A program made the position numbers and the translations under genes. A stretch of 42,535 nucleotides of DNA, taken from the NCBI RefSeq assembly GCF_001424385.1, contig NZ_LMPO01000006.1, positions 97,136 through 139,670 on the forward strand, read 5' to 3'. Under the pieces are notes generated by a model. The model did no database searches. It saw only the letters and a list, made by a program, of their open reading frames with translations, and had not been told where the DNA came from. This document shows positions 16,891-32,789 of this stretch, one piece after another. Numbering within the stretch: position 1 is the first letter of the stretch; every line of letters begins with the position of its first letter. The stretch is from Curtobacterium sp. Leaf183. GTDB lineage: Bacteria; Actinomycetota; Actinomycetes; Actinomycetales; Microbacteriaceae.

Positions 16891-16896
16891 CCCGCT

Positions 16897-16945
16897 GACG
16901 GACTGGAGGATCTGCGCACGTCGTACGCCGATCCTCCAGTCCGTC
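16897..16945 (+). terminator. 16-bp hairpin after the binding-protein gene
   Basis: Perfect complementary arms GACGGACTGGAGGATC (16897-16912) and its reverse complement (16930-16945) with a 17-base loop. It lies between the binding protein and the permease genes of the same operon. Such stems often allow higher expression of the binding protein than of the membrane subunits. Confidence 0.65.
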
Positions 16946-16990
16946 CCACCCCACCACCGCAGACCGCGCGAACGACGAGGAGGTCGTCGC

Positions 16991-17959
16991 ATGACCACCA
17001 TCCAGGACCCACCGGCGCCGGCCGTCCCCGCCGTCGCCACCGCGGTGGCCGGCTCGGCCGCGCCGGGCAGGACCGGGGACGACGACGCCTCGGGCGGCCG
17101 CCGCTCGTGGTGGGGTGCCGCCTTCGCCGCTCCGCACTCGATCGGCCTCGTCGTCTTCACGGCGTTCCCGATCATCGCCTCGCTCGTCGTGAGCTTCATG
17201 AACTGGCCGACGCTCGGTGCGCGGTCGTTCGCCGGCATCGAGAACTACGTCCGGCTGTTCAGCGATCCGGTGTTCCGCACGGTCACGCTCAACACCGCGC
17301 TGTTCGTGGTGCTGTACGTGCCGCTGAACCTCGTGGTGTCGCTCGGGCTGGCCGCCTGGCTGACGCCGCGGATCGCCGGGCGCCACGTGTTCCGCGTGCT
17401 GTTCTTCATCCCGACCATCACGCCGATCGTCGCGAACGTCGTGGTCTGGCGGATGCTGTACCAGCCCGGCGGCGCGATCGACGCGTCCCTGCAGTCGACC
17501 GTGGGCGTGCACGCGCCGAACTTCCTGGCCGACGAGCACTGGGCGATGCTCGCCATCGTGGCGATGAGCGTCTGGCAGGGGTTCGGCTACAACATGCTGA
17601 TCTTCTCGGCCGCGCTCGACGGGGTGCCGGAGAACCAGATCGAGGCCGCGCAGCTCGACGGGGCCAACGCCTGGCAGACCTTCTGGGCGATCAAGTTCCC
17701 GCTCATCTCCCCGTCGGTGTTCTTCGCGACGATGATGACGCTGATCACCTCGTTCCAGGTGTTCGTGCAGCCCTTCGTCCTGACCAAGGGCGGACCGGGC
17801 ACGGCGACCGAGACCCTGGTGCAGTACATCTACAACACCGGCTTCCAGAACCAGCAGCTCGGACTCGCGTCCGCCGGCGCCTGGGTGCTGTTCGTCATCA
17901 TCCTCGGGATCACGGCCGTCCAGTTCCTCGGGCAGAAGCGGTGGGTGCACTATGAGTGA
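16991..17959 (+). CDS. Sugar ABC transporter permease (MalF/LacF type)
   Basis: A 322-residue inner-membrane permease of carbohydrate uptake class CUT1, with about six helices after a ~40-residue Ala/Pro-rich cytoplasmic leader. The ATPase-contact EAA loop is recognisable as EAAQLDGANAWQTFWAIKFP (approx. 217-236). It should form the transmembrane channel with the next gene's product. GAGGAGGTC lies before the ATG. The stop overlaps the next start by eight bases. Confidence 0.93.
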   Translation: MTTIQDPPAPAVPAVATAVAGSAAPGRTGDDDASGGRRSWWGAAFAAPHSIGLVVFTAFPIIASLVVSFMNWPTLGARSFAGIENYVRLFSDPVFRTVTLNTALFVVLYVPLNLVVSLGLAAWLTPRIAGRHVFRVLFFIPTITPIVANVVVWRMLYQPGGAIDASLQSTVGVHAPNFLADEHWAMLAIVAMSVWQGFGYNMLIFSAALDGVPENQIEAAQLDGANAWQTFWAIKFPLISPSVFFATMMTLITSFQVFVQPFVLTKGGPGTATETLVQYIYNTGFQNQQLGLASAGAWVLFVIILGITAVQFLGQKRWVHYE

Positions 17960-18869
17960 AGCGGTCCGCGGCCGTCTCGGCGCCACCACGTCGAACCGGA
18001 CGGTCAACCCCCGCTCCGTCGCACGGACCCGCTCCGCTCCGCGACCCGGGCGCGTCCGGCACGCGATCGGCTACGCGCTGCTCTGCCTCGTCGCGCTGCT
18101 GTTCGTCGCACCCCTGATCTACATGGTCGCGACGAGCCTGAAGCCCGCCGACCAGGTCTTCACGACGCCGCCGACGCTCTGGGGACGCTCGTTCGAGTGG
18201 GACAACTACGTGCAGGCGTTCACCTACCTGCCGTTCGCACGCTTCATCCTGAACGGGGTGTTCGTCGCCGCTGCCGGCACCGCGATCAACGTGGCCGTGG
18301 CCGTGCTCTCCGGGTACGCGTTCTCGCGGCTCCGGTGGCGCGGACGCAACACGGTGTTCCTGCTGTTCCTGGTCACGCTGATGATCCCGCAGGACGTCCT
18401 GGTCATCCCGATGTACGTGATGATGCAGGGCTTCGGGTGGGTGGACACGTTCCAGGCGCTCATCATCCCGTGGGCGTTCACCGCGCTCGGCGCGTTCCTC
18501 ATCCGGCAGTTCTTCCTGACCGTGCCGCAGGAGCTCGACGACGCCGCCCGGGTGGACGGCGCCGGACCGGTCCGCACCTTCTTCTCGGTGATGCTCCCGC
18601 TCGCACGGCCGACCACCGCGGTCCTGGCCGTGTTCTCGTTCATCTCCTACTGGAACTCGTTCCTGTGGCCCCTGGTCGTCGTCAACGACGTCGAGGCCCA
18701 CGGCACGATCCCGCTCGGTCTGCAGCAGTTCTTCGGACAGCAGGGCAGCGAGTGGAACCTCGTCATGGCCGCGTCGGTGATCTCGATGCTGCCCACCGTG
18801 ATCCTGCTGATCCTGCTGCAGAAGCACCTCGTCAAGGGCATCGTCACCTCCGGCCTCGGTGGCCGGTAG
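17952..18869 (+). CDS. Sugar ABC transporter permease (MalG type)
   Basis: A 305-residue partner permease of the CUT1 importer, with ~6 membrane helices starting near residue 37 and the EAA-like loop DDAARVDGAGPVRTFFSVMLP (approx. 196-216). Start ATG lies inside the previous gene's 3' end, indicating coupled translation. No ATPase gene follows, so the importer must use an ATPase encoded elsewhere. It is followed after 26 bases by the fucosidase gene. Confidence 0.93.
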   Translation: MSEAVRGRLGATTSNRTVNPRSVARTRSAPRPGRVRHAIGYALLCLVALLFVAPLIYMVATSLKPADQVFTTPPTLWGRSFEWDNYVQAFTYLPFARFILNGVFVAAAGTAINVAVAVLSGYAFSRLRWRGRNTVFLLFLVTLMIPQDVLVIPMYVMMQGFGWVDTFQALIIPWAFTALGAFLIRQFFLTVPQELDDAARVDGAGPVRTFFSVMLPLARPTTAVLAVFSFISYWNSFLWPLVVVNDVEAHGTIPLGLQQFFGQQGSEWNLVMAASVISMLPTVILLILLQKHLVKGIVTSGLGGR

Positions 18870-18895
18870 CCGCCCGAACCCCGAAAGGACCCTCC

Positions 18896-20221
18896 GTGAC
18901 CATCACCGCCCCCGCCGCGCCGCAGACCGCGACCGACGCCACCGGCCTGCCCGCCTGGTTCACCCACGACCGCTTCGGCATGTTCATCCACTGGGGCCTG
19001 TACGCCCTGCCGGCCCGGCACGAGTGGATCAAGAACCTTGAGTACATCACCGAGGACGCCTACCAGCGGTACTTCGACCACTTCGACCCGGACCTGTTCG
19101 ACGCGGCCGACTGGGCACGGCGCGCGCGGCTCGCGGGCATGAGGTACGTCGTGCTCACCACGAAGCACCACGAGGGCTTCTGCCTGTGGGACTCCGCGCT
19201 CACCGACTACAAGTCCACGAACACCCCCTTCGGCCGCGACATCGTGCGTGAGTTCGTCGACGCCGTCCGCGCCGAGGGGCTGAAGGTCGGCTTCTACCAC
19301 TCGCTCATCGACTGGCACCACCCGGACTTCACGATCGACGGGCACCACCCGCGGCGGGAGGACGGCGAGGCCGAGATCGCCCGGCTCAACGAGGGCCGCG
19401 ACATGGCCCGCTACCGCGAGTACCTGCACGGCCAGGTGTCGGAGCTGCTGACGGACTACGGGCAGATCGACTACCTGTTCTACGACTTCTCGTACCGCGA
19501 GGACGACCACCACGACGTCTGGGGCGGCAAGGGCCGCGAGGACTGGGGGAGCGAGGAACTGCTCGCGCTGACCCGTCGGCTGCAGCCCGGCATCATCGTG
19601 AACGACCGACTCGACATCCCCGGTGACATCGTGACGCCGGAGCAGTACCAGCCGGACAAGCCGATGGAGGTCGACGGTGTCCAGGTGCCGTGGGAGGCGT
19701 GCCAGACGCTGAACGGCTCGTGGGGCTACGACCGCGACAACCAGAACGTCAAGAGCGTCGACCTGCTGGTCCGCATGCTCGTCGACGGGGTGTCGAACAA
19801 CGGGAACATGCTGCTCAACGTCGGCCCGACCGGGCGCGGCGAGTTCGACGGGGTGTCCCGCGCGACGCTCGACGGGTTCGCCGACTGGATGCACCAGCAC
19901 GACCGCTCGGTGTACGGCGCCGGGCCGAGCGAGTTCCAGGCACCGCGGAACGCGGTGTACACGCAGCGGGGCAACCGGCTGTACCTGCACCTGTTCGCCT
20001 GGCCGTTCGAGCACGTCCACCTGGCCGGGCTGGCCGGCAGGGTCGAGTACGCGCAGCTGCTGAACGACGCGTCCGAGGTCTTCTTCCGCTCGATCGACCC
20101 GTCGGTCCGGGCGCTGACCACCGGCCTCGGTGGGCAGCCGGCCGGGACGCTCACGCTGACGCTGCCCATCCAGCGTCCGGACGTAGCGCTGCCCGTCGTC
20201 GAGCTGTTCCTTCGCGACTGA
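18896..20221 (+). CDS. GH29 alpha-L-fucosidase (cytosolic)
   Basis: A 441-residue glycoside hydrolase family 29 enzyme releasing L-fucose from fucosides. The N-terminal WFTHDRFGMFIHWGLYALPARHEW block and the VLTTKHHEGFCLWDS active-site loop are typical, and Asp197 in IDYLFYDFS is the expected catalytic nucleophile. No signal peptide is present, so it should act on fucosides imported by the ABC system. The GTG start 18896 follows GAAAGGA. The stop overlaps the mutarotase ATG (TGATG). Confidence 0.92.
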   Translation: MTITAPAAPQTATDATGLPAWFTHDRFGMFIHWGLYALPARHEWIKNLEYITEDAYQRYFDHFDPDLFDAADWARRARLAGMRYVVLTTKHHEGFCLWDSALTDYKSTNTPFGRDIVREFVDAVRAEGLKVGFYHSLIDWHHPDFTIDGHHPRREDGEAEIARLNEGRDMARYREYLHGQVSELLTDYGQIDYLFYDFSYREDDHHDVWGGKGREDWGSEELLALTRRLQPGIIVNDRLDIPGDIVTPEQYQPDKPMEVDGVQVPWEACQTLNGSWGYDRDNQNVKSVDLLVRMLVDGVSNNGNMLLNVGPTGRGEFDGVSRATLDGFADWMHQHDRSVYGAGPSEFQAPRNAVYTQRGNRLYLHLFAWPFEHVHLAGLAGRVEYAQLLNDASEVFFRSIDPSVRALTTGLGGQPAGTLTLTLPIQRPDVALPVVELFLRD

Positions 20222-20541
20222 TGCAGCGCATCCTCTCGCGCACCCGGCTCCGTGCGGGTCGCGAAGACGACTACGAGCGAGCGCACGCGTCCATCCCGCC
20301 GGCGCTCGTGGAACGCCTGCGGGCAGCCGGTGTCGCGAACTGGAGCATCTGGCGGGACGGTCAGGACCTGATCCACCTGATCGAGGTGTCGGACTACCGT
20401 GCCATGCGGCGGTCGCTGGCCGACGACCCGGTGAACGCCGACTGGCAGGCCGTGATCAACCCGCTGCTCGAGGCCGACGACGACTACTCCGGGAACGACG
20501 ACGGCGTGCCGCTGGTGTGGACGCTCGAAGGGCAGGCATGA
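20221..20541 (+). CDS. L-fucose mutarotase (RhaM/DUF718-like)
   Basis: A 106-residue small alpha+beta-barrel protein of the L-rhamnose/L-fucose mutarotase family, which interconverts alpha and beta pyranose forms. Landmarks are the N-terminal RTRLRAGREDDYERAHASIPP with His22, the GVANWSIWRDGQDLIHLIEV strand pair and the conserved C-terminal residues near PLVWTLEG. Its place between fucosidase and the fucose dehydrogenase-like gene suggests L-fucose as substrate. It overlaps its neighbours by one base upstream and four bases downstream. Confidence 0.87.
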   Translation: MQRILSRTRLRAGREDDYERAHASIPPALVERLRAAGVANWSIWRDGQDLIHLIEVSDYRAMRRSLADDPVNADWQAVINPLLEADDDYSGNDDGVPLVWTLEGQA

Positions 20542-21488
20542 GCGACGTGGAGTTCGACCGCGGACCGTTCTGGTTCGGTGGCGCCGGCATCGGGAACCTG
20601 CTGCGCGCGGTCACGGACGACGACGCCCGCGCCACGGTCGACGCGGCGTGGGACGTCGGGGTCCGCGGGTTCGACACGGCTCCGCACTACGGACTCGGGC
20701 TGAGCGAGCGGCGGCTCGGCGCGGCCCTCGCCGACCGTCCTCGCGGGGCCTACGCCGTCTCGACCAAGGTCGGTCGGCTGCTCGTGCCCGGCCCCGGTGA
20801 CGGCACGGACGACGACGGCTTCGCGGTGCCGAACGACGTCGTCCGGCAGTGGGACCCCACGCCCGACGGCGTGCGTCGCTCGCTCGACGAGTCACTCGGG
20901 CGGCTCGGGCTCGACCACGTCGACGTGGCGTACCTGCACGACCCCGACGTGTACGACCTGCACGCCGGGCTCACCCAGGCGCTGCCGGCGCTCGCCGCGA
21001 TGCGGGACGAGGGCGTCGTGCGAGCGGTCGGTGTCGGGTCGAACTCGGTCGCGGCGCTGTCCGACGCCGTCGACACCGGGCTGTGCGACGTCGTGATGCT
21101 CGCCGGGCGGTACACGCTGCTCGAACAGCCCGCGGCCGCGCTCGTCGCGACGTGTGCCGAGCGGGGGGTCGACGTGGTCGCGGTCGGGGTGTACAACTCC
21201 GGACTGCTCAGCCGTCCCCTGCCGGAGCCGGGGACCACGTACGACTACGCCCCGGCACCGGCCGAGCTCGTCGAGCGGGCACGGACGATCGCCGCCGTGT
21301 GCGACCGGCACGGCGTGACGCTGCCCGAGGCCGCGCTGGCCTTCCCCCGCCGGGCCGCGGCGGTCCGCACGATCGCGATCGGCGTGCAGTCGGCGGACCA
21401 GGTCCGCGAGAACGCCGCCCGTGCCGCCGCGACGATCCCCGAGGCGCTGTGGGAGGACCTGCGCGCCGAGGGGCTGCTGGCGAGCTGA
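20538..21488 (+). CDS. Aldo/keto reductase, probable L-fucose dehydrogenase
   Basis: A 316-residue (alpha/beta)8 aldo/keto reductase resembling D-threo-aldose 1-dehydrogenase and L-fucose dehydrogenase. The tetrad is Asp46, Tyr51, Lys77 and His134 (DTAPHYG, STKVG, AYLHDPD). It should oxidise L-fucose to L-fuconolactone with NAD(P)+, the first step of the non-phosphorylated pathway. ATG 20538 overlaps the mutarotase stop (ATGA). The specific substrate is inferred from the operon. A strong terminator hairpin follows. Confidence 0.88.
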   Translation: MSDVEFDRGPFWFGGAGIGNLLRAVTDDDARATVDAAWDVGVRGFDTAPHYGLGLSERRLGAALADRPRGAYAVSTKVGRLLVPGPGDGTDDDGFAVPNDVVRQWDPTPDGVRRSLDESLGRLGLDHVDVAYLHDPDVYDLHAGLTQALPALAAMRDEGVVRAVGVGSNSVAALSDAVDTGLCDVVMLAGRYTLLEQPAAALVATCAERGVDVVAVGVYNSGLLSRPLPEPGTTYDYAPAPAELVERARTIAAVCDRHGVTLPEAALAFPRRAAAVRTIAIGVQSADQVRENAARAAATIPEALWEDLRAEGLLAS

Positions 21489-21519
21489 GCAGTCGCGCGG
21501 GGGAGCGTCGCACCCCACA

Positions 21520-21559
21520 ACGAACAACGCGCCCCGTCAAGACGGGGCGCGTTGTTCGT
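21520..21559. terminator. Bidirectional terminator, 19-bp stem
   Basis: Perfect 19-base arms (21520-21538 and 21541-21559) with GCGCCCCGTC at the apex and A/T-richer ACAAC/GTTGT bases near the foot. It sits between the convergent AKR and GlsB/YeaQ-like genes and can serve both. Confidence 0.8.
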
Positions 21560-21590
21560 GTGCGGGCGCGATCCGCGCCGAGGGCAGTCC

Positions 21591-21866
21591 CTAGTTGCGT
21601 GCCCCACGACCCGCGAAGCGGGTGTAGAGGAAGAGCACGATGACGGCGCCGATGACGGAACCGATGATGCCGGCCGGCTGGAAGAAGCCGTCCATCGGGT
21701 CGTGCTGGAAGATCAGGAACCCGAGGAACCCGCCGACGAACGACCCGACGATGCCGAGCACGATGGTCATGAGGATCGAGATGCTCTGCTTGCCGGGGAT
21801 GATCAGACGCGCGAGGGCGCCGGCGATCAGTCCGATGATGATCAAGCTGATGATGAGACCGAGCAC
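21591..21866 (-). CDS. GlsB/YeaQ/YmgE family small membrane protein
   Basis: A 91-residue protein with three hydrophobic helices and glycine-rich turns (GLIAGALARLIIPG, GIVGSFVGGFLGFLIF, GIIGSVIGAVIVLFLYTRF), typical of transglycosylase-associated/YeaQ proteins. These are stress-linked membrane proteins whose biochemical role is unclear. GTG 21866 was chosen because AGGAGG lies six bases upstream; earlier in-frame codons give no family sequence. It seems unrelated to the flanking fucose genes. Confidence 0.88.
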   Translation of the reverse strand: MLGLIISLIIIGLIAGALARLIIPGKQSISILMTIVLGIVGSFVGGFLGFLIFQHDPMDGFFQPAGIIGSVIGAVIVLFLYTRFAGRGARN

Positions 21867-22013
21867 GGTGTCCTCCTGGTGGTGCGGTGATGGTGGTGCG
21901 TACGAAACGGCACTGGCAGATCGCCGGTGCCGGTCAGGATCCGATTGAACACGCTCATCGCCGGGTGCGCCCACATCCGCGCGGAGTGGACCGATGCAAC
22001 GCCGCCGCGCGGG

Positions 22014-22691
22014 TCAGTCGAGCGACCGCCGCAGCCACCGCTCGACGCCCTCGACGTGGGCCACGACGAGGGCCTGCACGAGCTGCGGGTCGCGGCGTCG
22101 GATCGCGTCCACGATGGCCGCGTGCTCGTCGAGCGTGCGCTGGACGGACCCGTTCTGGGTGAGGCCGCGCCACACCCGCACGCGCACGGTCTTGCTCGAC
22201 AGGGCGTCGAGCAGCCCGGACAGGTACTGGTTGCCGCCGATGCCCGCGATCGTGGCGTGGAACTGCAGGTCGTGGGCGACGAGGTCCTCGACCCCGGTGG
22301 TGTCGTCGACCGTCGCCATCAGCGTGGCGAGTTCGTCGATCTGCTGCTCCGACGCCCGGGCCGTGGCCAGCACGGCGGACGCGGGCTCGAGGATGCGCCG
22401 GACCTCGAGCAGGTCGACGAGCGATCGGTCGTGGTGCATGTCCACGACGAAGGACACCGCTTCGAGCAGTACCGAGGGCTCGAGCGACGTCACGTAGGTG
22501 CCGTCACCACGACGGACGTCGAGCACGCGCACGAGCTCGAGGGCCTTCACCGCTTCGCGCAGGCTGTTCCGCGACAACCCGAGGGACTCGCTGAGTTCCT
22601 TCTCCGGGGGCAGCCGTTGCCCGGGCGTCAGCTCACCCGTGACGATCATCTGCTGGATGCGCGCGATCGCGTCGTCGGTCAGCGAAGCCAT
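22014..22691 (-). CDS. FadR-subfamily GntR regulator of the fucose locus
   Basis: A 225-residue GntR repressor. The winged helix-turn-helix spans about residues 8-70 (GELTPGQRLPPEKELSESLG, SRNSLREAVKALE, GDGTYV). The C-terminal FCD ligand domain has candidate metal-binding residues in DLQFHATIAG and in a later EHAAIVDAI and HVEGV. It is the last gene of the minus-strand fucose arm and probably binds the AGACATCC-N-ATGTCT motif at both arms, released by a pathway sugar acid. GGAGGGAC precedes the ATG. A TATCGT box (22733-22738) could give it a promoter of its own. Confidence 0.9.
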   Translation of the reverse strand: MASLTDDAIARIQQMIVTGELTPGQRLPPEKELSESLGLSRNSLREAVKALELVRVLDVRRGDGTYVTSLEPSVLLEAVSFVVDMHHDRSLVDLLEVRRILEPASAVLATARASEQQIDELATLMATVDDTTGVEDLVAHDLQFHATIAGIGGNQYLSGLLDALSSKTVRVRVWRGLTQNGSVQRTLDEHAAIVDAIRRRDPQLVQALVVAHVEGVERWLRRSLD

Positions 22692-22773
22692 GGCAGTCCC
22701 TCCACCCGGCCACGCTCGGTCGGGACGGATCGACGATACCCGCACCGGGCCTCCCGGACGGGGAGCTCGACCA

Positions 22774-23517
22774 TCAGGCGGGCCGGAGCCGCAGGGCCTG
22801 CATCCCGCCGTCGACCGCCAGGTCGACACCCGTCGTCGAGGCCGCCATGGGGCTCGTCAGGTAGGCGACCGCCTCGGCGACCTCCTCCGGGGCGACGAGC
22901 CGTCCGTGCGGCTGCCGCGCCTCGAGCGCTGCGCGCTCGGCCGCCGGGTCGTCGGCACTGTCGAGCAGCCGGCCCACCCATGGGGTGTCTGCCGTGCCGG
23001 GGTTGACCGCGTTGACGCGGATGCCCTCGCGGAGGTGGTCCGCCGCCATGGCGCGGGTGAGCGCCGCGATCGCGCCCTTGGTCGCGGAGTAGAGCGCGCG
23101 CTGCGGCAGGCCGGCGGTCGCGGCGATCGAGCAGGTGTTCACGATGGAGGACCGGCCCGACTCCCGCAGGAACGGCAGGCAGGCCCGGGTCAGCCGGACG
23201 GCACCGAGCACGTTGACCTCGTACACGCGGCGCCACTCGTCGTCGGGGTTGTCCTCGACGGTGCCCTGCGCGCCGATGCCCGCGTTGTTGACGAGCACGT
23301 CGACGCCACCGAGGGCGTCCGCCGCCGCGGCGACGGCCGCGCGCACGGACGTGTCGTCGCTGACGTCACAGGTGAACGACGGGAAGTCGGCCGAGGGCTG
23401 CAGGTCGAGGACGGCCACGCTCGCCCCGCGGTCCCGGAGTGCCACCGCGATCGCGGCGCCGATGCCCGAGGCGCCACCGGTGACGACGGCGCGGAGCCCG
23501 TCGTGCGAGCCAGCCAT
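22774..23517 (-). CDS. SDR dehydrogenase, probable 2-keto-3-deoxy-L-fuconate dehydrogenase
   Basis: A 247-residue classical SDR with TGGASGIG (13-20), NNAG (77-80), Ser130, Tyr143 and Lys147. In the non-phosphorylated L-fucose pathway a dehydrogenase of this type oxidises 2-keto-3-deoxy-L-fuconate at C4 to the 2,4-diketo acid, using NAD+. The assignment rests on its tight coupling to the 2,4-diketo acid hydrolase gene (TGATG one-base overlap) and on the other pathway genes; the fold alone would not give the substrate. Confidence 0.87.
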   Translation of the reverse strand: MAGSHDGLRAVVTGGASGIGAAIAVALRDRGASVAVLDLQPSADFPSFTCDVSDDTSVRAAVAAAADALGGVDVLVNNAGIGAQGTVEDNPDDEWRRVYEVNVLGAVRLTRACLPFLRESGRSSIVNTCSIAATAGLPQRALYSATKGAIAALTRAMAADHLREGIRVNAVNPGTADTPWVGRLLDSADDPAAERAALEARQPHGRLVAPEEVAEAVAYLTSPMAASTTGVDLAVDGGMQALRLRPA

Positions 23518-24365
23518 CAGGCCGCACCCATCGTCTGGCGCTGGGTGCCGAGGCCGTCCGCGGTGAGCTCGACGACGTCGCCGGGCTGCAGGTACGGGGC
23601 GCCGCTGCCGAGGGCGACACCGGCGGGGGTGCCGGTGCTGATGACGTCACCCGGGTACAGGACCATGAACTGCGACAGGTAGTGCACGATCTCGGCCGGT
23701 CGGAAGATCATGTCCGCGGTCGAGCCGTCCTGACGGACCTCGCCGTTCACGGTCAGTCGCAGCGCCAGGTCGGCCGGGTCGATGGCGTCGGCAGTGACCA
23801 GCCACGGGCCCAGCGGGTTGAACGTCTCGCAGGACTTGCCCTTGTCCCACTGCCCGCCGCGCTCGATCTGGAACTCGCGCTCGGACACGTCGTTCGCGAT
23901 CGTGTAGCCGGCGATGTGCGTGGCGGCCTCGTCCTCGGACTCGCAGTAGCGCGCGGTGGTGCCGATCACGACGGCGAGCTCGATCTCCCAGTCGGTCTTG
24001 GCGCTCTTGCGGGGCACCAGCACCTCGTCGTCCGGGCCGATGACCGTCATCGGGTCCTTCATGAACACGATCGGCTCGGTCGGGATCTGAGCGCCGGTCT
24101 CGGCGGCGTGGTCGCGGTAGTTCAGGCCGATGCAGACGACCTTGCCGGGCCGGGCGACCGGGGCGCCGCGGCGCAGGGTGTCGGCGTCGGGCAGGACCCC
24201 GAGCTCGCCCGCGGCGATCGCGTCCCGCACGCGTGCGACGGGGTCGGCGGCCAGGAACGCACCGGTGATGTCGGCCGTGACCGGACGGAGGTCGTACGCC
24301 TGCCCGTCGGTGTCGTGGGCCACGGGGATCTCGTCGCCCGCCGGGCCGAGTCGTGCGAACCGCAT
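23517..24365 (-). CDS. FAH-family hydrolase, probable 2,4-diketo-3-deoxy-L-fuconate hydrolase
   Basis: A 282-residue fumarylacetoacetate-hydrolase-fold enzyme, expected to cleave 2,4-diketo-3-deoxy-L-fuconate to pyruvate and L-lactate. Family signatures are GLNYRDHAAE (80-89), FMKDPMTVIGPDD, the metal ligands Glu127 and Glu129 in DWEIEL, Asp159 in ANDVSEREFQ, KGKSCETFNPLGPWLV, and GDVISTGTPAGVALG. ATG 24365 was chosen because GAGGAACG lies just upstream; the 36 extra residues of the longest frame overlap the operator. First gene of the FAH-SDR-GntR transcript. Confidence 0.88.
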   Translation of the reverse strand: MRFARLGPAGDEIPVAHDTDGQAYDLRPVTADITGAFLAADPVARVRDAIAAGELGVLPDADTLRRGAPVARPGKVVCIGLNYRDHAAETGAQIPTEPIVFMKDPMTVIGPDDEVLVPRKSAKTDWEIELAVVIGTTARYCESEDEAATHIAGYTIANDVSEREFQIERGGQWDKGKSCETFNPLGPWLVTADAIDPADLALRLTVNGEVRQDGSTADMIFRPAEIVHYLSQFMVLYPGDVISTGTPAGVALGSGAPYLQPGDVVELTADGLGTQRQTMGAA

Positions 24366-24419
24366 CGTTCCTCGCTCTCCGCGCCGCGTCGATGCGGCGC
24401 ATGCGACCGTCCAGCCGCT

Positions 24420-24458
24420 GCGCGGTCGCTGTGACCGCGCAGACATCCTATGTCTGCG
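24420..24458. promoter_or_regulatory. FadR/GntR operator and adjacent inverted repeat
   Basis: A perfect 9+3+9 palindrome (24438-24458) has the core AGACATCCTATGTCT and overlaps the stop codon of the lactonase gene, 73 bases before the FAH start. Next to it GCGCGGTC-5-GACCGCGC (24420-24440) forms a second stem. The core matches the sequence in the plus-arm promoter at 14201, making it the best candidate site for the locus regulator. Confidence 0.7.
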
Positions 24459-25305
24459 GTGGGGCCGCGGCAAGGTAGACCCGCTCGGCGGTACGCCGGA
24501 ACACGGCGTCGCGCTCGTCGTCCGACAGGTCGGCGAGTGCGTCCGAAGCGGTCCGGAGCACCTCGGCGTAGTCGCCCTGCAGCGTGGAGACCGGCCAGTC
24601 CGAGCCGAACAGGGACCGGTCCGGGCCGAACGCCTCGACGACCTGTCGGGCGTACCGGGCGACAGGTCGCTCGCGCCAGTCGGTGCCCGCCTCGGTGACC
24701 AGGCCGGAGACCTTGCACAGGACGTTGGGTCGCGCGGCCAGGTCGTCCATCCGGGCGCGCCAGGCGATCGCGACGTCAGTGTCGTCGTGGGCGATGTCGG
24801 GCTTGCCGGCGTGGTCGAGGACGAAGACGCCGTCCGGGACCGCGTCGACGAGCGTCACCGCCGCCGCGTGTTCCCGATCGCGGACCAGCAGGTCGAACGG
24901 CATCCCTGCCGCGGCGAGCACCCGCACGCCGGCCACGACGTCGTCGCGCGCGAGCCAGTCGCGGTCGGGCTCGTCGTGCGCCAGGTGCCGGATGCCGACC
25001 AGCCGCGGGCCGCCCTCGCGCTCGAGGTCGACCAGCGCCGCGAGCCGGTCGACGACGTCGGGCGCGGTCAGGTCGACCCAGCCGACGACCCCGCCGACGG
25101 GGACGGGCTGCGTCAGGAGCCAGGCGGTCTCGTCCGGGTCGTGCACGGCCTGGACGGCGATCGTGGCCGTGACGTCGGTGCCGGCGACCGCTGCACGCAG
25201 GTCGTCGGCGTCGAACCGGCGCCGGATGGGGGCGACGGAGTCGTCCATCCACGGGTAGGCACGCTCGGACGGGTCCCAGAGGTGGTGGTGCGCGTCGACG
25301 ATCAC
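24448..25305 (-). CDS. Amidohydrolase, probable L-fuconolactonase
   Basis: A 285-residue amidohydrolase_2 (PF04909-like) protein with the N-terminal metal motif DAHHHLW (His6, His8), His165 in VLDHAGKP and Asp236 in FGSDWP. In L-fucose loci this family hydrolyses L-fucono-lactone to L-fuconate. The GTG start 25305 places the metal motif at the very N-terminus as usual; there is no ribosome-binding site. A CATGAT box six bases upstream suggests a leaderless transcript. A GGATGTCTG half-operator (25329-25337) lies just before that box. Confidence 0.88.
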   Translation of the reverse strand: MIVDAHHHLWDPSERAYPWMDDSVAPIRRRFDADDLRAAVAGTDVTATIAVQAVHDPDETAWLLTQPVPVGGVVGWVDLTAPDVVDRLAALVDLEREGGPRLVGIRHLAHDEPDRDWLARDDVVAGVRVLAAAGMPFDLLVRDREHAAAVTLVDAVPDGVFVLDHAGKPDIAHDDTDVAIAWRARMDDLAARPNVLCKVSGLVTEAGTDWRERPVARYARQVVEAFGPDRSLFGSDWPVSTLQGDYAEVLRTASDALADLSDDERDAVFRRTAERVYLAAAPPQT

Positions 25306-26736: not shown

Positions 26737-28425
26737 ATGCCGCCGCGCTCCGACCCCGACACGCTGGCGTGGGCCTCGGCGGCCATCCGGCACCTGGCCC
26801 GGACGACCAACATGCTCGTCGCCGCACGGACCTTCCGCATCGTCGGCGGTGACCCGCGCGACGCCGCCGCGCTCGACACCCTGCTGACGGGCCTCGGCGC
26901 CCGGGCCGCCCGGTCCGACGACCTCGTCGACCAGCTGTGGTGCCTCGGCACCCCGGACCAGAGCGCCCTCGCGGTGGAGCAGGCCCTCGACCGCCCCCGC
27001 GGCCGCACCCTGCTCGTCGTCGACGCGGGCCGCCACGAGCCCGCCGTCGACGAGGACGCCTTCGGCCCGTTGACCCCCGCGCGGCCCGGCGTGCTCGGCA
27101 TCCCGATGACCGCTGACGACGTCTTCCTGGTCTCGACCGGTCGTGAGCCCGAGGACGACCCCGCCGCCGCTGCGCGGATGCGCTGGGCCCGCCGGAGCAT
27201 GCCGGTCTCCCGCGCCGTCGCGGCCGAGCTCCGCGAGCAGGGACTGCTGCGCGGCACCCGCGTCGGCGTCGCGATGGTGCTCGAACCGAAGACCGCCGTG
27301 CTGTCGCTGCTGCTGCGGGACGCCGGCGCCGAGGTCGCGGTGTACGCCCACGCGGACGAGACGGACGACGCGGTCGCCGACGAGCTCCGCCGAGCCGGCC
27401 TGCTCGTCTTCGCGGACAGCGCCGCGACCCTGCCCGAGCAGAAGGCCCTGGCGCTCGCGATGCTCGACACCCGCCCGCACGTCCTGCTGGACGACGGCGC
27501 GCACGTCATCCGACTCGCGCACCAGGAACGGCCGGACCTGCTCCCGACGATGCTCGGCGCGGCAGAGGAGACGACGAGCGGCCTGCGCCCCCTGCGCGTG
27601 CTGGCGGACCGGGGCGAGCTCGGCATCCCCGTGGTCGCCGTCAACGACGCCCGCACCAAGACCTCGTTCGACAACCGGTACGGCACCGGGCAGTCGACCG
27701 TGTTCGCGGCGCTCGACCTGGTCGACGGGCTGCGGTCCGGCACACACCGGGTGGTCCCGGGAGGCTCCGCCGTCGTCGCGGGGTACGGGCACGTGGGTGA
27801 AGGGGTCGCCCTGGTGCTCCGTGCGCTCGGCTTCCGGGTCACGGTCGCCGAGACGGACCCCGTCCGCGCCCTGCAGGCACGGTTCGCCGGCCACGCCGTG
27901 GCGCCGCTCGTCGATGCCGTCCGCGACGCAGCCCTGGTGATGAGCGCGACCGGCGTGCGCGACACGATCAGCGTCGCGGTGCTGCGGGCATGCGCCCCCG
28001 ATGCCGTCATCGCCGTGGCCGGGGGCGTCGACCAGGAGGTCGCGATCGACGCCGCGCTCGCCGCCGGCGCCACCCGCACCCCCGTCGGACCGAAGTGCGA
28101 GCGGTTCGCGTTCCCGGACGACGAGCACGGCGTCCTCGTGCTCGACGACGGCGGGTGCATCAACATCACCGCCGCCGAGGGCAACCCGATCGAGATCATG
28201 GACCTGTCCTTCGCCGTGCAGCTCGGCGCCGTCCGGATGCTGCTCGAGCGCGGCGACGAGCTCGACCGGGCCGTCGTGCCGGTCGACCCCGCGGTGGACG
28301 AGGCGACCGCCCGCGCGGCGCTGGCCGCGTTCGGCAGCCGAGCCGAGCCTCCCGTCCCGGTCGCAGCGCAGCCCGCAGCCCGCGAGCCGGACGTGCGGAC
28401 GACCCGCTTCGGGGACCCCGCGTGA
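26737..28425 (+). CDS. S-adenosylhomocysteinase-like protein with altered active site
   Basis: A 562-residue protein whose residues ~145-525 follow the AdoHcyase fold. It keeps MRWARRSMPV, LDDGAH, EETTSG, K308, FDN (311-313), YGTGQS and the NAD site GYGHVGEG (349-356). Relative to the human enzyme, three active-site histidines are replaced: His55 by Val181 (AMVLEPK), His301 by Gly430 (GGVD instead of GHFD) and His353 by Asn483 (EGNP instead of EGHP). A ~140-residue N-terminal domain and the missing C-terminal Lys/Tyr tail also differ. It may bind NAD+ and a nucleoside-like ligand but is unlikely to be an ordinary SAH hydrolase. It overlaps the deaminase-like gene by four bases (GTGA). Confidence 0.85.
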   Translation: MPPRSDPDTLAWASAAIRHLARTTNMLVAARTFRIVGGDPRDAAALDTLLTGLGARAARSDDLVDQLWCLGTPDQSALAVEQALDRPRGRTLLVVDAGRHEPAVDEDAFGPLTPARPGVLGIPMTADDVFLVSTGREPEDDPAAAARMRWARRSMPVSRAVAAELREQGLLRGTRVGVAMVLEPKTAVLSLLLRDAGAEVAVYAHADETDDAVADELRRAGLLVFADSAATLPEQKALALAMLDTRPHVLLDDGAHVIRLAHQERPDLLPTMLGAAEETTSGLRPLRVLADRGELGIPVVAVNDARTKTSFDNRYGTGQSTVFAALDLVDGLRSGTHRVVPGGSAVVAGYGHVGEGVALVLRALGFRVTVAETDPVRALQARFAGHAVAPLVDAVRDAALVMSATGVRDTISVAVLRACAPDAVIAVAGGVDQEVAIDAALAAGATRTPVGPKCERFAFPDDEHGVLVLDDGGCINITAAEGNPIEIMDLSFAVQLGAVRMLLERGDELDRAVVPVDPAVDEATARAALAAFGSRAEPPVPVAAQPAAREPDVRTTRFGDPA

Positions 28426-29753
28426 CCGAGACGACCGTCCACTCGGCGCGCATCGTCGTGCCGATGACCGCGCCGCCCATCGCCGACGGCGCCGTCGCGG
28501 TCCGGGACGGACGGATCCTGCACGTCGGCGAGCGCTCCTGGGTCGTCGACCAGCTCGACGGGTCCCCGTGGACCGAACGACGGTGGCGCGGTGCACTGCT
28601 GCCCGGCCTCGTGAACGCGCACTCGCACCTGCAGTACACCGGCATGGCGAGTGTCGGCCAGGGACGGTACGACGGGTTCGAGGACTGGGCTGCCGCGTTC
28701 AACGCCGTCTACGCCGACGAGCACGACTGGCGAGCCGAGGCCGCCGCCGGTGCTGCCCGGTCGATCGTCGCCGGTGTGACGAGCATCGCGGACATCGTCA
28801 CCGACATCGAGGCGGTCGACGCGCTCGCCGACGCGGGCCTCGGCGGCATCGCCTACTGGGAGGTGATGGACTGGGAGAACGCCGCCTGGCAGGCGCACGG
28901 CCGCGACCAGGTGCTCGACGAGCTCGAGCGCGTCCCGACCACACCGGGTGCCGGGCTGTCGCCGCACGCGCCGTACTCGCTCGACGTCGCCCCGCTGCTC
29001 GAGCTGCCCGACATCGTGCGCCAGCGCGGTCTGCGGCTGCACCTGCACCTGGGGGAAGCGGCCTTCGAGGGGGAGCGGTTGGCCGGGCCGGACACCACCG
29101 ACGAGCACGGGACCGACTGGCACCTGGCGAACGTGCCGTCCTTCCGGGCGATGCGGGCGCTCGGGTTCGGGGCCAGTGCGACCTCGTTCGTCGACCGGCT
29201 CGGGGTGCTCGGTCCGGACTGCCACATCGCGCACGGCGTCTACATGACCGCGGCCGACCGCGCCCTGCTCCGCGCCCGCGGCACCGCTGTCGCCCTGTGT
29301 CCCCGGTCGAACGCCGTCATCGGGCTCGACCCGCCGCCCGTCGCCGACTACCTGCGCGAGGGCAGCCCGATCGCGATCGGCACCGACTCGCTCTCCTCGT
29401 CGCCGTCGCTCGACCTGATGGCCGACGTCACCGCGCTGCACCGGGTCGCCCGGGCGCAGGGGTACGGCGACCGTGACCTGCACGAACGGCTGCTGTCGGC
29501 AGCGACGCTCGGCGGGGCGCACGCGATGGGCCTGGCGGTCGGTCCGGACCGGATCGGGCACCTGGCCGTGGGGGCCCGGGCCGACCTGGCGGTGTTCGAC
29601 GTCGACGCCCGGACGGTGCCCGACGCGCTCGCCGAACTCGTCGAGGACGGCGCGGGTCGCGCGGTCGCGACGGTCATCCGCGGGCGGGTCCGGGCGCAGG
29701 ACGGCCAGCCGCGCGCGCAGGACGGTCGGCCGGCGCCGGCCGACGCGGGATGA
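28422..29753 (+). CDS. ATZ/TRZ-type amidohydrolase, nucleoside-deaminase-like
   Basis: A 443-residue amidohydrolase of the group containing SAH/MTA deaminase, aminodeoxyfutalosine deaminase and TrzN. Metal ligands are HSH (His67, His69 in LVNAHSHLQ), a later His in HLHLGEA with the catalytic Glu, His in HGVYM and Asp in GTDSLSSSPS. It should remove an amino group from an adenine-like ring. Its GTG start overlaps the stop of the AdoHcyase-like gene, suggesting that deamination precedes or follows that protein's reaction on the same nucleoside. No menaquinone gene is nearby to favour futalosine. Confidence 0.87.
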   Translation: MTETTVHSARIVVPMTAPPIADGAVAVRDGRILHVGERSWVVDQLDGSPWTERRWRGALLPGLVNAHSHLQYTGMASVGQGRYDGFEDWAAAFNAVYADEHDWRAEAAAGAARSIVAGVTSIADIVTDIEAVDALADAGLGGIAYWEVMDWENAAWQAHGRDQVLDELERVPTTPGAGLSPHAPYSLDVAPLLELPDIVRQRGLRLHLHLGEAAFEGERLAGPDTTDEHGTDWHLANVPSFRAMRALGFGASATSFVDRLGVLGPDCHIAHGVYMTAADRALLRARGTAVALCPRSNAVIGLDPPPVADYLREGSPIAIGTDSLSSSPSLDLMADVTALHRVARAQGYGDRDLHERLLSAATLGGAHAMGLAVGPDRIGHLAVGARADLAVFDVDARTVPDALAELVEDGAGRAVATVIRGRVRAQDGQPRAQDGRPAPADAG

Positions 29754-29760
29754 TGGTGGC

Positions 29761-30237
29761 ATGGACGGGCAGATGGCACGACGGACGGTCGACGGCGAAC
29801 TGATCGAGTGGCTCGACGTCCCGAAGCGGGCGATGGCGCTCGGCATGGAACCGCACCCCGAGGGTGGCTGGTACGTCCGCACGTGGACCTCGCCCGCGAC
29901 GGTGTCGGTGCCCGGCGGCCAGCGACCCGCGGCGACGCTGATCCGCTTCCTGCTGCCCCCGGGCGAGGCGTCTGCGTGGCACCGGGTCACGAGCGACGAG
30001 ATCTGGATGTGGCACGGGCCGGACTCCGTCGAGCTGCAGCTCGGTGGATCGGGGGAGTCCCCGGAGCCCGGCGCGACGATCACCCTCGGACCGGACGCCG
30101 GGCGCGACCGGGTGAACGACGCGCAGGCGTTCGTCCGCGGCGGTGTCTGGCAGCGCACGCTCCCCGGCGAGGGCGAGGTGCTCCTGAGCTGCCTGGTGTC
30201 GCCCGGGTTCTCGTTCGAGGACTTCACACTGGCCTGA
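29761..30237 (+). CDS. DUF985 cupin domain protein
   Basis: A 158-residue single-domain cupin of the DUF985/Cupin_5 family. Hallmarks are MEPHPEGGWYVRTW, SAWHRVTSDEIWMWHG and the C-terminal LVSPGFSFEDFTLA. Yeast and plant relatives are small-molecule-binding beta barrels without an agreed activity. It begins seven bases after the amidohydrolase stop, so it is probably the third gene of that operon. An ATG at 29773 is a possible alternative start. A 40-base perfect palindrome follows two bases after the stop. Confidence 0.88.
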   Translation: MDGQMARRTVDGELIEWLDVPKRAMALGMEPHPEGGWYVRTWTSPATVSVPGGQRPAATLIRFLLPPGEASAWHRVTSDEIWMWHGPDSVELQLGGSGESPEPGATITLGPDAGRDRVNDAQAFVRGGVWQRTLPGEGEVLLSCLVSPGFSFEDFTLA

Positions 30238-30239
30238 GC

Positions 30240-30279
30240 GCACGCGCGTGCGACGTCGCGCGACGTCGCACGCGCGTGC
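30240..30279. terminator. 40-base perfect palindrome after the cupin gene
   Basis: Each 20-base half is the exact reverse complement of the other, with zero spacer. The halves are themselves built of palindromes: GCACGCGCGTGC (12 bases) and GCGACGTCGC (10 bases), each occurring twice. It begins two bases after the cupin stop codon and lies ~20 bases before the next promoter. A terminator is the simplest reading, but the absence of a loop and of a T-tract is unusual. Confidence 0.6.
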
Positions 30280-30297
30280 TGGTATCCCACCTGCCGG

Positions 30298-30303
30298 TAC
30301 ACT
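30298..30303 (+). promoter_or_regulatory. Candidate -10 TACACT for the amino-acid ABC operon
   Basis: TACACT (TANNNT) lies 37 bases before the GTG of the binding-protein gene, giving a short leader that contains GAAGG. No convincing -35 box is visible. Confidence 0.35.
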
Positions 30304-30340
30304 TCGTGCTGCCCCCCACCCCCTGCACGAAGGCCCGACC

Positions 30341-31162
30341 GTGACTCGATCGTTCCGTCTCTCCCTCGCCATCGCGACCACCGCCGTCGCCGCCCTCGCG
30401 CTCACCGCGTGCTCGGCCGGCGGCAGCTCGGGCTCGGACGGCACGGTGACCGACGGCAAGCTCACGATCGCGACCGGGCAGCCCGCGTACTCGCCCTGGG
30501 TCGAGGACAACAAGCCACAGTCCGGCAAGGGCTTCGAGTCCGCGGTGGCGTACGCCGTCGCGAAGGAGATGGGCTACGCGAAGTCCGACGTGGTGTGGAA
30601 GCGCAGCACCTTCGACAGCGCGGTCGCACCGGGCCCGAAGGACTGGGACCTCAACGTCCAGCAGTTCTCGATCTCGTCGCAGCGCAAGAAGGCCGTCGAC
30701 ATGTCGTCGCCGTACTACACGACGACCCAGGCCGTCGTGACGACCGAGAAGTCGAAGGCCGTCGACGACACCACGGTGGCGTCACTCAAGCAGGACACGA
30801 TCGGCGTCGCCGCCGGCTCGACGAGCATCACCAGCGTCAAGGACGTGCTCGGCGTGACCCCGCAGGTCTTCAACTCGAACGACGACGCCGTCCTGGCGCT
30901 CAAGTCCGGCCAGATCGACGCGATCGTCACCGACCTGCCGACCGCTTTTTACATGTCCGGCGCGCAGCTCGACGACGGCACCGTGTCGGCGCAGTTCCCG
31001 GCCGACGGCAAGGGCGACCAGTTCGGCTTCGTTCTGCCGAAGGACTCCGGCCTGACGAGCAAGGTCGACAAGGCCCTGAAGACGCTCGACACCGACGGCA
31101 CGCTCACCGCCCTGCAGAAGAAGTGGCTGTCGTCGGAGACGAACACGCCCGTGCTGAAGTAG
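30341..31162 (+). CDS. Polar amino-acid ABC transporter binding lipoprotein
   Basis: A 273-residue family 3 solute-binding protein. The signal peptide ends at the lipobox LTAC (Cys ~24) followed by a Ser/Gly/Asp linker. The mature part has KLTIATGQPAYSPWVEDN, FDSAVAPGPKDWDLNVQQFSIS, VVTTEKS and SGQIDAIVTDLPTAF, typical of glutamine/cystine/arginine binding proteins. It should capture an amino acid outside the membrane for the permease and ATPase encoded next. The GTG start 30341 follows GAAGG; the specific amino acid is not clear. Confidence 0.92.
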   Translation: MTRSFRLSLAIATTAVAALALTACSAGGSSGSDGTVTDGKLTIATGQPAYSPWVEDNKPQSGKGFESAVAYAVAKEMGYAKSDVVWKRSTFDSAVAPGPKDWDLNVQQFSISSQRKKAVDMSSPYYTTTQAVVTTEKSKAVDDTTVASLKQDTIGVAAGSTSITSVKDVLGVTPQVFNSNDDAVLALKSGQIDAIVTDLPTAFYMSGAQLDDGTVSAQFPADGKGDQFGFVLPKDSGLTSKVDKALKTLDTDGTLTALQKKWLSSETNTPVLK

Positions 31163-31167
31163 CCCGC

Positions 31168-32043
31168 GTGTCCGTCCCAGCCGGAGCGGGTCCGTCCCTC
31201 GCGCCCGCCCCCAGTCAGATCGAGCTCGAACGCCGGATCCACCGTCGGCAGCGCGGCCGTCGGTCGATCGCGGTGTCCGTCGTGTCGACGCTGGTCGTCC
31301 TGGCGGTCGTGTACTTCGGCGTCGTGAACACGCCGGGATGGGCCGCCGTCCAGCAGTCGTTCTTCGACCCGGGCGTCGCCGCCTCGACGTTCCCGGACAT
31401 CCTGCTCGGCCTGTGGCTGAACGTGCGGATCCTGTTCTTCGCGTCGATCGGCGTCGCGGTGTTCGGCACGCTGCTCGCCGTGGTGCGCGGGCTGCAGAGC
31501 CCGGTGTTCTTCCCGCTCCGCATGCTGGCCACCGGCTACACCGACCTGTTCCGTGGCCTGCCGCTCATCATCGTGCTGTACCTGGTCGGGTTCGGCCTGC
31601 CCGGACTCGGGGTCTTCCCCCGCCTGGCACCGGAGTTCTGGGGCACGATCGCGATCGTCCTGACCTACTCGTCGTACGTCGCCGAGGTGCTCCGGGCCGG
31701 CATGGAGGCCGTGCACCCCTCCCAGCGCCTGGCCGCCCGATCGCTCGGCCTGTCCCACACCCAGACGCTCCGGTTGGTCGTGCTGCCGCAGGCGATCCGC
31801 AAGGTGACCCCGGCGCTGATGAACGACTTCGTGTCGATGCAGAAGGACGTCGGGCTGGTGTCGATCCTCGGCGCCGTCGACGCCGTCCGGAGCGCCCAGA
31901 TCGCGCAGGCCGAGACCTACAACTTCACGCCCTACCTGGTAGCCGGGCTGCTGTTCGTCGTGATCAGCCTGCCGCTCATCCGCGTCACCGACGCCATCGC
32001 GCGGCGACAGCAGCGTCGCGAGCAGATCGGTGGCACCGTATGA
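31168..32043 (+). CDS. Amino-acid ABC transporter permease (HisM/GlnP type)
   Basis: A 291-residue permease with an Arg-rich cytosolic leader and ~5 membrane helices. The conserved segment GYTDLFRGLPLIIVLYLV and the ATPase-contact loop EAVHPSQRLAARSLGLSHTQ (approx. 180-199) are characteristic of the polar amino-acid uptake family. GTG 31168 lies six bases after the binding-protein stop. The stop overlaps the ATPase start (ATGA). Confidence 0.9.
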   Translation: MSVPAGAGPSLAPAPSQIELERRIHRRQRGRRSIAVSVVSTLVVLAVVYFGVVNTPGWAAVQQSFFDPGVAASTFPDILLGLWLNVRILFFASIGVAVFGTLLAVVRGLQSPVFFPLRMLATGYTDLFRGLPLIIVLYLVGFGLPGLGVFPRLAPEFWGTIAIVLTYSSYVAEVLRAGMEAVHPSQRLAARSLGLSHTQTLRLVVLPQAIRKVTPALMNDFVSMQKDVGLVSILGAVDAVRSAQIAQAETYNFTPYLVAGLLFVVISLPLIRVTDAIARRQQRREQIGGTV

Positions 32044-32789
32044 CGACCGAGACCGACGCACCCGTCCTCGAGCTGCGGGGCCTGCGCAAGTCGTTCGGCG
32101 ACCAGCAGGTCCTGCGCGGCATCGACCTCACCGTCGACCGTCACCAGGTCATCTGCGTGATCGGGGCGTCCGGATCGGGCAAGTCCACGCTGCTCAAGAC
32201 CGTGAACCTGCTCGAGGGCATCGACGACGGGCAGGTCTTCCTGCAGGGCTCGGACATCTCGGACCCCCGCGTGGACGTCGACGCCACCCGGGCCCGCATC
32301 GGCGTGGTGTTCCAGCAGTTCAACCTGTTCCCGCACATCACCGTGCTCGACAACGTCACGCTCGCGTCGCGGAAGGTGCACGGCGTCGACCGAGCGACCG
32401 CCGAGGCCACCGCGCGCCGGCTGCTCGACCGGATCGGCCTCGGCGAGTTCGCTGGGGCATACCCGGACCGGCTCTCCGGCGGGCAGCAGCAGCGCGTCGC
32501 CATCGTCCGTGCGATCGCGTCCGACCCTGAGCTGCTGCTGCTCGACGAGGTCACCAGCGCGCTCGACCCGATGCTCGTGGGCGAGGTCCTCGACCTGGTG
32601 CGCGAGCTCAAGCAGCAGGGCTCCACGATCCTGATGACCACGCACGAGATGCACTTCGCGCGGAACGTCGCCGACCGCATCGTGTTCCTGCACCGGGGTG
32701 AGGTCGTCGAGCAGGGGCCTCCCGCCGCGGTGCTCGACAGCCCGCAGCACCCGGCGCTGGTCGAGTTCCTGGCGCGCGTCGGCGCGTAG
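32040..32789 (+). CDS. Amino-acid ABC transporter ATP-binding protein
   Basis: A 249-residue ATPase of the GlnQ type with Walker A GASGSGKST, Q-loop VVFQQFNLFPH, signature LSGGQQQR, Walker B LLLLDEVTSALDP and H-loop TTHEM, all canonical. It energises uptake through the permease encoded just upstream. Its complete motifs contrast with the degenerate pair at 5-6.6 kb. Two long hairpins follow the stop. Confidence 0.94.
   Translation: MTTETDAPVLELRGLRKSFGDQQVLRGIDLTVDRHQVICVIGASGSGKSTLLKTVNLLEGIDDGQVFLQGSDISDPRVDVDATRARIGVVFQQFNLFPHITVLDNVTLASRKVHGVDRATAEATARRLLDRIGLGEFAGAYPDRLSGGQQQRVAIVRAIASDPELLLLDEVTSALDPMLVGEVLDLVRELKQQGSTILMTTHEMHFARNVADRIVFLHRGEVVEQGPPAAVLDSPQHPALVEFLARVGA

Follow-up and report, generated by a model that had tools for sequence, protein, structure and literature searches.

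The SAHH-like locus of Curtobacterium sp. Leaf183

A stretch of 42,535 nucleotides from Curtobacterium sp. Leaf183 (contig NZ_LMPO01000006.1; hereafter the window) carries a gene for a relative of S-adenosylhomocysteine (SAH) hydrolase (SAHH; AhcY, EC 3.3.1.1) that lacks the three active-site histidines of that enzyme. The named proteins listed in comparison were 79-86% identical and place the genome near Curtobacterium. This gene overlaps the gene of a likely deaminase and is followed by cupin and importer genes; together they form a conserved actinobacterial cluster (26737-32789). The overlap of four bases and the DUF985 cupin gene behind it had been noticed in a sequence-only reading of the window, and the gene coordinates (28422-29753 and 29761-30237) agree with this. 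The genes and domains of the cluster are as follows.

26737-28425, + strand: SAHH-like gene, whole; 562 aa, ATG start
26737..27156, + strand: N-terminal extra domain (residues 1-140), a second cofactor (Rossmann) domain of SAHH type, degenerate and lacking GxGxxG
27157..28425, + strand: SAHH-like core (residues 141-562), with V181/G430/N483 where H55/H301/H353 are expected; E183/K185, D253, E278/T279, K308, D312/N313 and GxGxxG are retained
28422..29753, + strand: likely deaminase of the amidohydrolase family; GTG start, overlapping the SAHH-like gene by 4 bases
29761..30237, + strand: DUF985/Cupin_5 protein (Pfam PF06172, 123.6 bits against a cut-off of 25)
30341..31162, + strand: solute-binding protein SBP_bac_3 (amino-acid type) of an ATP-binding cassette (ABC) importer
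31273..32043, + strand: ABC permease, a conserved neighbour; its best NCBIfam score, below cut-off, is for cystine permease
32040..32789, + strand: ABC ATPase, GlnQ/TcyN-like (below equivalog cut-offs), a conserved neighbour

Loss of the active-site histidines is a family trait

The SAHH-like protein was aligned to solved SAHHs, including the T. maritima and archaeal enzymes. The SAHH fold, with its substrate- and cofactor-binding domains, was present, and the alignment was unambiguous around all three histidine sites. H-L-E-x-K-T-A was changed to V181-L-E-P-K-T-A, A-G-H-F to A-G-G430-V and D-G-H-P to E-G-N483-P, confirming the proposal of the sequence-only reading that the residues equal to human His55, His301 and His353 are Val181, Gly430 and Asn483. 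The active-site description of mouse SAHH in PMC4647836 assigns Glu156/Asp190 to the 2′-OH, Thr157/Lys186 to the 3′-OH and His55/Asp131/His301 to the 5′-OH. His55 is proposed there as the base that activates water for the 3′-keto-4′,5′-didehydro intermediate, Asp131 supplies the C4′ proton, His301 contributes to stabilising the intermediate and flips as a gate, and His353 reaches the base with main-chain atoms. The loss of His353 is probably less important than that of His55 and His301, because its contact is made by the main chain.

The distribution of these changes was followed by searching 299 Microbacteriaceae genomes with the whole protein (genomes and loci are given below by our G and L numbers). 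The family cut-off (E<=3.4e-66) was placed at an observed gap, the next match (8.8e-61) being a histidine-complete copy of G069. In the 56 family loci read from this search, which include some genomes twice, position 181 was Val in 49, Phe in 3, Ile in 3 and Leu in 1, but never His; Gly430 was present in 56/56 and Asn483 in 55/56. Reduced to 35 non-redundant members (window included), the same search gave V/I/L181 in 35/35, Gly430 in 35/35 and Asn483 in 34/35, with the 3′-oxidation residues retained in 34-35. These 35 belong to a larger set of 99 members, non-redundant at <95% identity, to which named genomes had been added through two peptide patterns, the one favouring V/I at position 181; here that position was Val in 79, Phe in 13, Thr in 4, Ile in 2 and Leu in 1, and His in none. 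To count among the 99, a sequence had to be at least 40% identical to the window protein or to carry Gly430, and only L059 was admitted by the latter rule; Gly430 was found in 99/99 and Asn483 in 97/99; L133, which is incomplete, was excluded from the residue counts. SAHH is described in PMC4647836 as very conserved, with Gly-His-Phe identical across the SAHHs of various species covered there; at this gate (Gly300-His301-Phe302) no family member carried the Phe either (Phe431 0/99). The residue losses are therefore a family trait and beyond chance.

The rest of the active site was retained. Among the 99 members, equivalents of Lys186 and Asp190 and the GxGxxG motif were present in 99, and those of Asn191, Glu156, Thr157 and Asp131 in 98, so that the retention of the NAD+ site and Lys/Asp/Asn, claimed for the window protein from its sequence, holds for the family. 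The exception was L059 (genome G024), a decayed copy with changed Asp131, Glu156, Thr157 and Asn191 equivalents; G024 also had no deaminase match. The base-binding pair was Glu (98/99) and Lys (99/99), and the full HxExK fingerprint was absent since its His is missing. In the enzyme comparison of PMC10978960, this E/K motif marks enzymes preferring S-inosylhomocysteine (SIH). A conserved replacement histidine was sought and rejected: none was invariant. His256, at the Asp134 site, was frequent (86/99) but absent from several branches, the tandem and Rathayibacter forms having Ser instead; Arg259 was present in 98/99. A literature search of open-licence PubMed Central (PMC) papers gave no apparent paper on this histidine-less family.

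The N-terminal domain and a histidine-complete twin

The extra N-terminal part of about 140 residues, already noted from the sequence, is real and confidently folded. Far from being an unrelated add-on, it is a second cofactor domain of SAHH type in degenerate form. In two loci, a histidine-complete SAHH gene was found directly 5′ of the histidine-less copy, in one apparent operon:

L055 7032-9559 (G069): tandem histidine-complete/histidine-less SAHH-like genes
L187 6652-9164 (XES5): tandem histidine-complete/histidine-less SAHH-like genes

Both twins carry HxExK, the gate His and His353. Sugar-type ABC genes and a deaminase gene lie 3′ of the pair in both loci, and XES5 has a nucleoside hydrolase gene as well. 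Profile scores left it undecided whether the N-terminal domain originated from the histidine-complete copy. L187 is located on a plasmid whose record gives Roseateles sp. XES5 as its organism. Of 72,556 plasmid records searched, two contained a match to the SAHH-like protein (E<=1e-50), and the match in Paenibacillus was histidine-complete; with the deaminase, one record matched, the XES5 record with the histidine-less copy.

The SAHH-like protein is tied to a likely deaminase

The amidohydrolase-family protein scored 128.1 bits against PF01979 (cut-off 25), and His67, His69, His209, Glu212, His271 and Asp322, which we take to be candidate metal ligands, were invariant in 21 aligned sequences. 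A profile search placed it in the same family as the amidohydrolase nucleoside deaminases and relatives 4dyk, 4gbd, 4f0r (methylthioadenosine (MTA)/SAH deaminase), 7lkj (aminofutalosine deaminase) and DR_0824 2imr. However, it stays well under the curated cut-off of every deaminase model listed in the NCBIfam comparison, scoring 39 of 779 bits for NF012037 (SAH/MTA deaminase) and 111 of 522 for 5′-deoxyadenosine deaminase.

The deaminase family (E<=1e-60) and the SAHH-like family (E<=3.4e-66) each occurred in 48/299 Microbacteriaceae genomes, and the two occurred together in 47, with one exception each way (Fisher 1.2e-52; counts joined from two draws of 299 genomes via shared handles). Of 74 family loci whose neighbours were read, window included, ten stood outside the 64-locus set used for counting, since the SAHH-like gene was missed by the gene caller (8, recovered by protein-to-DNA search), cut short (L050) or scored under the threshold (L058). 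In the 64 loci, which include some genomes twice from two collections, the deaminase gene followed downstream in the same orientation in 60, with a 4-base overlap in 33 of these 60; it was fused to the SAHH-like gene in 2 (L052, L118), the fusions belonging to two lineages, and uncalled at the threshold in 2. At a looser threshold, a deaminase homologue was found in 63, a cupin in 48, and an amino-acid-type binding protein with permease in 51. The co-occurrence and the two fusions indicate that the pair suspected from the window is a conserved unit. A deaminase gene without SAHH-like partner was observed in L184 (7259-11228; G093), where its neighbours are importer genes of MetNIQ-like type and a gene for a monooxygenase of the NtaA/DmoA family.

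Distribution of the family and SAH recycling

The sequence-only reading had asked whether the genome holds a second, canonical ahcY, and an AhcY with all three histidines was indeed found (L001). Among the 48 variant-bearing Microbacteriaceae genomes, 29 had AhcY (E<=1e-60), 14 had LuxS instead, and 5 (G082, G197, G047, G202 and G005) had a match to neither. Because 43/48 genomes have AhcY or LuxS, the variant is unlikely to be a general SAH-recycling enzyme; the presence of the module does not track the SAH route of a genome, and this argues against a housekeeping role.

In a class-level sample of 296 genomes, only the window's own genome gave a score at the level of the family (598 bits, against 352 for the next), and the 29 next-best homologues aligned, among 83 other matching genomes, all carried the three histidines and were canonical (29/29). 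Family members were also found in records titled Mycobacterium, Mycolicibacterium, Nocardia, Demequina, Schaalia and Actinomyces. Among the 80 loci listed from named genomes, none was from Streptomyces. For that genus, the Streptomyces SAHHs tested in PMC10978960 do not cleave SIH, and its authors suggest that other enzymes may metabolise it.

A tree built from 69 family members (out of the 99), 13 group (ii) paralogues and 16 canonical enzymes, without the archaeal enzymes and the histidine-complete twins, placed the histidine-less family on one side of a 100/100 branch. The group (ii) paralogues (L061-L073) were 31-38% identical to the window protein and kept His55 and His301, but Asp131 is replaced by Asn and Asp190 by Glu in 13/13. 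A group (ii)-like copy (33% identity) is present in G082 and G197 as well. By Pfam, the group (ii) locus L063 contains IclR, adenosine deaminase, phosphotransferase system (PTS) IIA and IIB and nucleoside hydrolase genes, and L062 contains nucleoside hydrolase, pyrimidine phosphorylase, cytidine deaminase and Bmp/BPD_transp_2 ABC importer genes. Both SAHH-like branches thus lie among purine- or nucleoside-related genes in the loci typed.

Importer, cupin and varying neighbours

In 54 binding proteins from family loci, Arg115, Thr161 and Asp198 were at least 95% conserved; they align at places that presumably serve amino-acid backbone binding in this solute-binding protein family. Because these residues are conserved and the permease scores best as a cystine permease, an amino-acid-bearing nucleoside such as SAH is a plausible imported compound. 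The importer type varied among lineages: amino-acid ABC, energy-coupling factor (ECF), sugar ABC and, in one case, a major facilitator superfamily (MFS) gene nearby. In Rathayibacter, Mycobacterium, Mycolicibacterium and Nocardia loci, an ECF-like block (Pfam-checked in L041, and in L127 for the substrate component) lies between the SAHH-like and deaminase genes. The relatives of the cupin in the Protein Data Bank include 3loi/3lzz, and 3LZZ is listed in PMC11594714 as a GDP complex, which would fit a nucleoside role by analogy.

In L127, a Mycolicibacterium locus, the cassette is followed by an alkanesulfonate-monooxygenase-like gene (below cut-off). A conserved organosulfur context was considered and rejected, relatives of this monooxygenase and of that in L184 being found only in L151, in L133 and 24 kb off in the window. 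Between the cupin and importer genes of the window there is a perfect inverted repeat:

30240..30279, no strand assigned: 18-bp arms, 4-base loop (z -4.6 against shuffles)

This repeat is a possible terminator or attenuator for the first part of the operon. An Rfam search at gathering score, covering the window and six loci, found no riboswitch family near the cluster.

Comparison with known SAHH relatives

The variant shares with SAHH the fold, the NAD+ site and the equivalents of Glu156, Thr157, Lys186, Asp190, Asn191 and Asp131. Unlike AhcY, it lacks the three histidines, carries the E/K base motif where AhcY has T/E(Q), has an extra degenerate cofactor domain, and is found in a genome with a separate canonical AhcY. 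The SIH hydrolases (EC 3.13.1.9; M. jannaschii, P. furiosus and T. maritima type) provide the closest solved structures; they share the E and K of HxExK and the association with a likely nucleoside deaminase, whereas the variant has Val/Phe/Thr/Ile/Leu for the H of that motif and Gly for the gate His, and its gene is clustered with importer and cupin genes. The AHCYL1/IRBIT-type animal proteins also combine a SAHH-like core with an extra N-terminal part, and a non-hydrolase role is suspected for them. However, the extra part of the variant is a SAHH cofactor domain, and the variant is encoded in a cluster with a likely deaminase. AgmF, the SAHH-like dehydratase of angustmycin A biosynthesis, is another relative that uses bound NAD+. 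As described in PMC8599513, its product keeps the new double bond, i.e. the reaction ends at the alkene; the essential set comprises His56, Asp129, Lys184, Asp188 and His299, and both H56A and H299A abolish activity. AgmF thus has and needs the two histidines that the variant lacks, while the Asp and Lys equivalents are kept in the variant.

Proposed function and alternatives

As judged from the alignments, the histidine-less family keeps the C3′ redox residues, the NAD+ site and Asp131, and loses the 5′ acid/base and gate pair. Since the redox residues (E156, T157, K186, D190) and D131, which handles the C4′ proton, are kept, whereas the pair His55/His301, which in SAHH holds and activates the water added to 3′-keto-4′,5′-didehydroadenosine, is lost, oxidation and elimination without hydration would be expected. 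The importer would bring in an adenine nucleoside, perhaps SAH-like, which the likely deaminase would convert to the hypoxanthine form. The variant would then oxidise the 3′-OH with bound NAD+, C4′ would be deprotonated, and the 5′ substituent, provided that it leaves readily as a thiolate does, would be expelled with no water added, giving 4′,5′-didehydro-5′-deoxyinosine and the free 5′ group, which would be homocysteine in the case of SAH. The E/K motif of SIH-preferring enzymes would be expected here if deamination came first. The sequence-only reading had suggested a changed form of the methanogen route, in which SAH is deaminated and the inosyl product hydrolysed; the conserved pair and the E/K motif fit this idea, but plain SIH hydrolysis is not predicted by the residues. 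The cluster very probably encodes a functional nucleoside module, and the variant is probably a redox-competent enzyme. The scheme as a whole, with import, deamination and then a lyase-type SAHH relative, is tentative, and a lyase without hydration is possible though doubtful. Rather doubtful is the most specific version, a new type of enzyme on the SAHH scaffold, namely a nucleoside-thioether lyase for deaminase-made hypoxanthine nucleosides that would work as a pseudo-heteromer, its histidine-complete twin having shrunk to a single cofactor domain.

Several points weigh against this proposal. AgmF shows by analogy that the histidines can be essential for elimination, at least with water leaving, so the lyase inference would be unsafe for poor leaving groups. 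The likely deaminase is far from the curated SAH/MTA and 5′-deoxyadenosine deaminase models. Importers differ between lineages, so the substrate cannot be read from the mode of transport. In the five genomes with no AhcY or LuxS match, the variant may have a role in SAH recycling. Moreover, His256 might supply another acid/base, but Ser takes its place in the tandem and Rathayibacter forms. The absence of His256 from these forms also counts against a true hydrolase of SIH or a similar thioether, in which His256, Arg259 or a water network would replace His55/His301. The SIH-preferring motif would suit this hydrolase, as would the nucleoside hydrolase of the XES5 operon if inosine were the product, and yet we consider it unlikely. 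NAD+-dependent base release, in which hypoxanthine would leave C1′ after 3′-oxidation and the 5′ group would have no role, would make the loss of the 5′ residues cost-free, and free nucleobase was a side product in all set-ups of the many-SAHH study as reported in PMC10978960. Nucleoside hydrolase genes are, however, already present in the XES5 operon and in both typed group (ii) loci, and Asp131, which serves C4′, is kept in nearly all members, leaving base release improbable.

Improbable as well is a non-catalytic, AHCYL-like partner that would bind nucleoside and NAD+ and regulate or scaffold the deaminase. The loss of histidines essential elsewhere, the deaminase fusions, the extra N-terminal domain and the histidine-complete copy preceding the variant in two loci are consistent with such a partner. 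On the other hand, Lys186, Asp190, Asn191, Glu156 and Asp131 are kept in 98-99/99, the sole copy with these residues changed sits in a deaminase-less genome, and among the 64 loci a histidine-complete copy adjoins the variant only in L055. An ordinary AhcY backup recycling SAH could draw on the annotation of relatives as adenosylhomocysteinase, on the NF004005 score (passed, 333 vs 275 bits) and on the 5/48 genomes without canonical AhcY and LuxS matches. It is nevertheless very improbable, the catalytic histidines being gone family-wide, the protein being tied to the deaminase in 47/48 genomes, and AhcY or LuxS being present in the other 43; the database name adenosylhomocysteinase is probably wrong for these proteins. 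A large family without the water-handling histidines but with the redox residues is a natural experiment on separable parts of the SAHH mechanism. The proposed lyase-type module would also point to a possible nucleoside-scavenging route in Microbacteriaceae and, as judged by record titles, in other actinobacterial genera.

Other features of the window

At 37717-41583 the window contains an open frame of 1288 aa with no Pfam match at E<=1e-10. Upstream of the cluster, at 15697-25305, there are genes for a sugar ABC importer, an alpha-L-fucosidase, an FAA hydrolase and an Amidohydro_2 protein, and this gene content suggests a fucose-use cluster.

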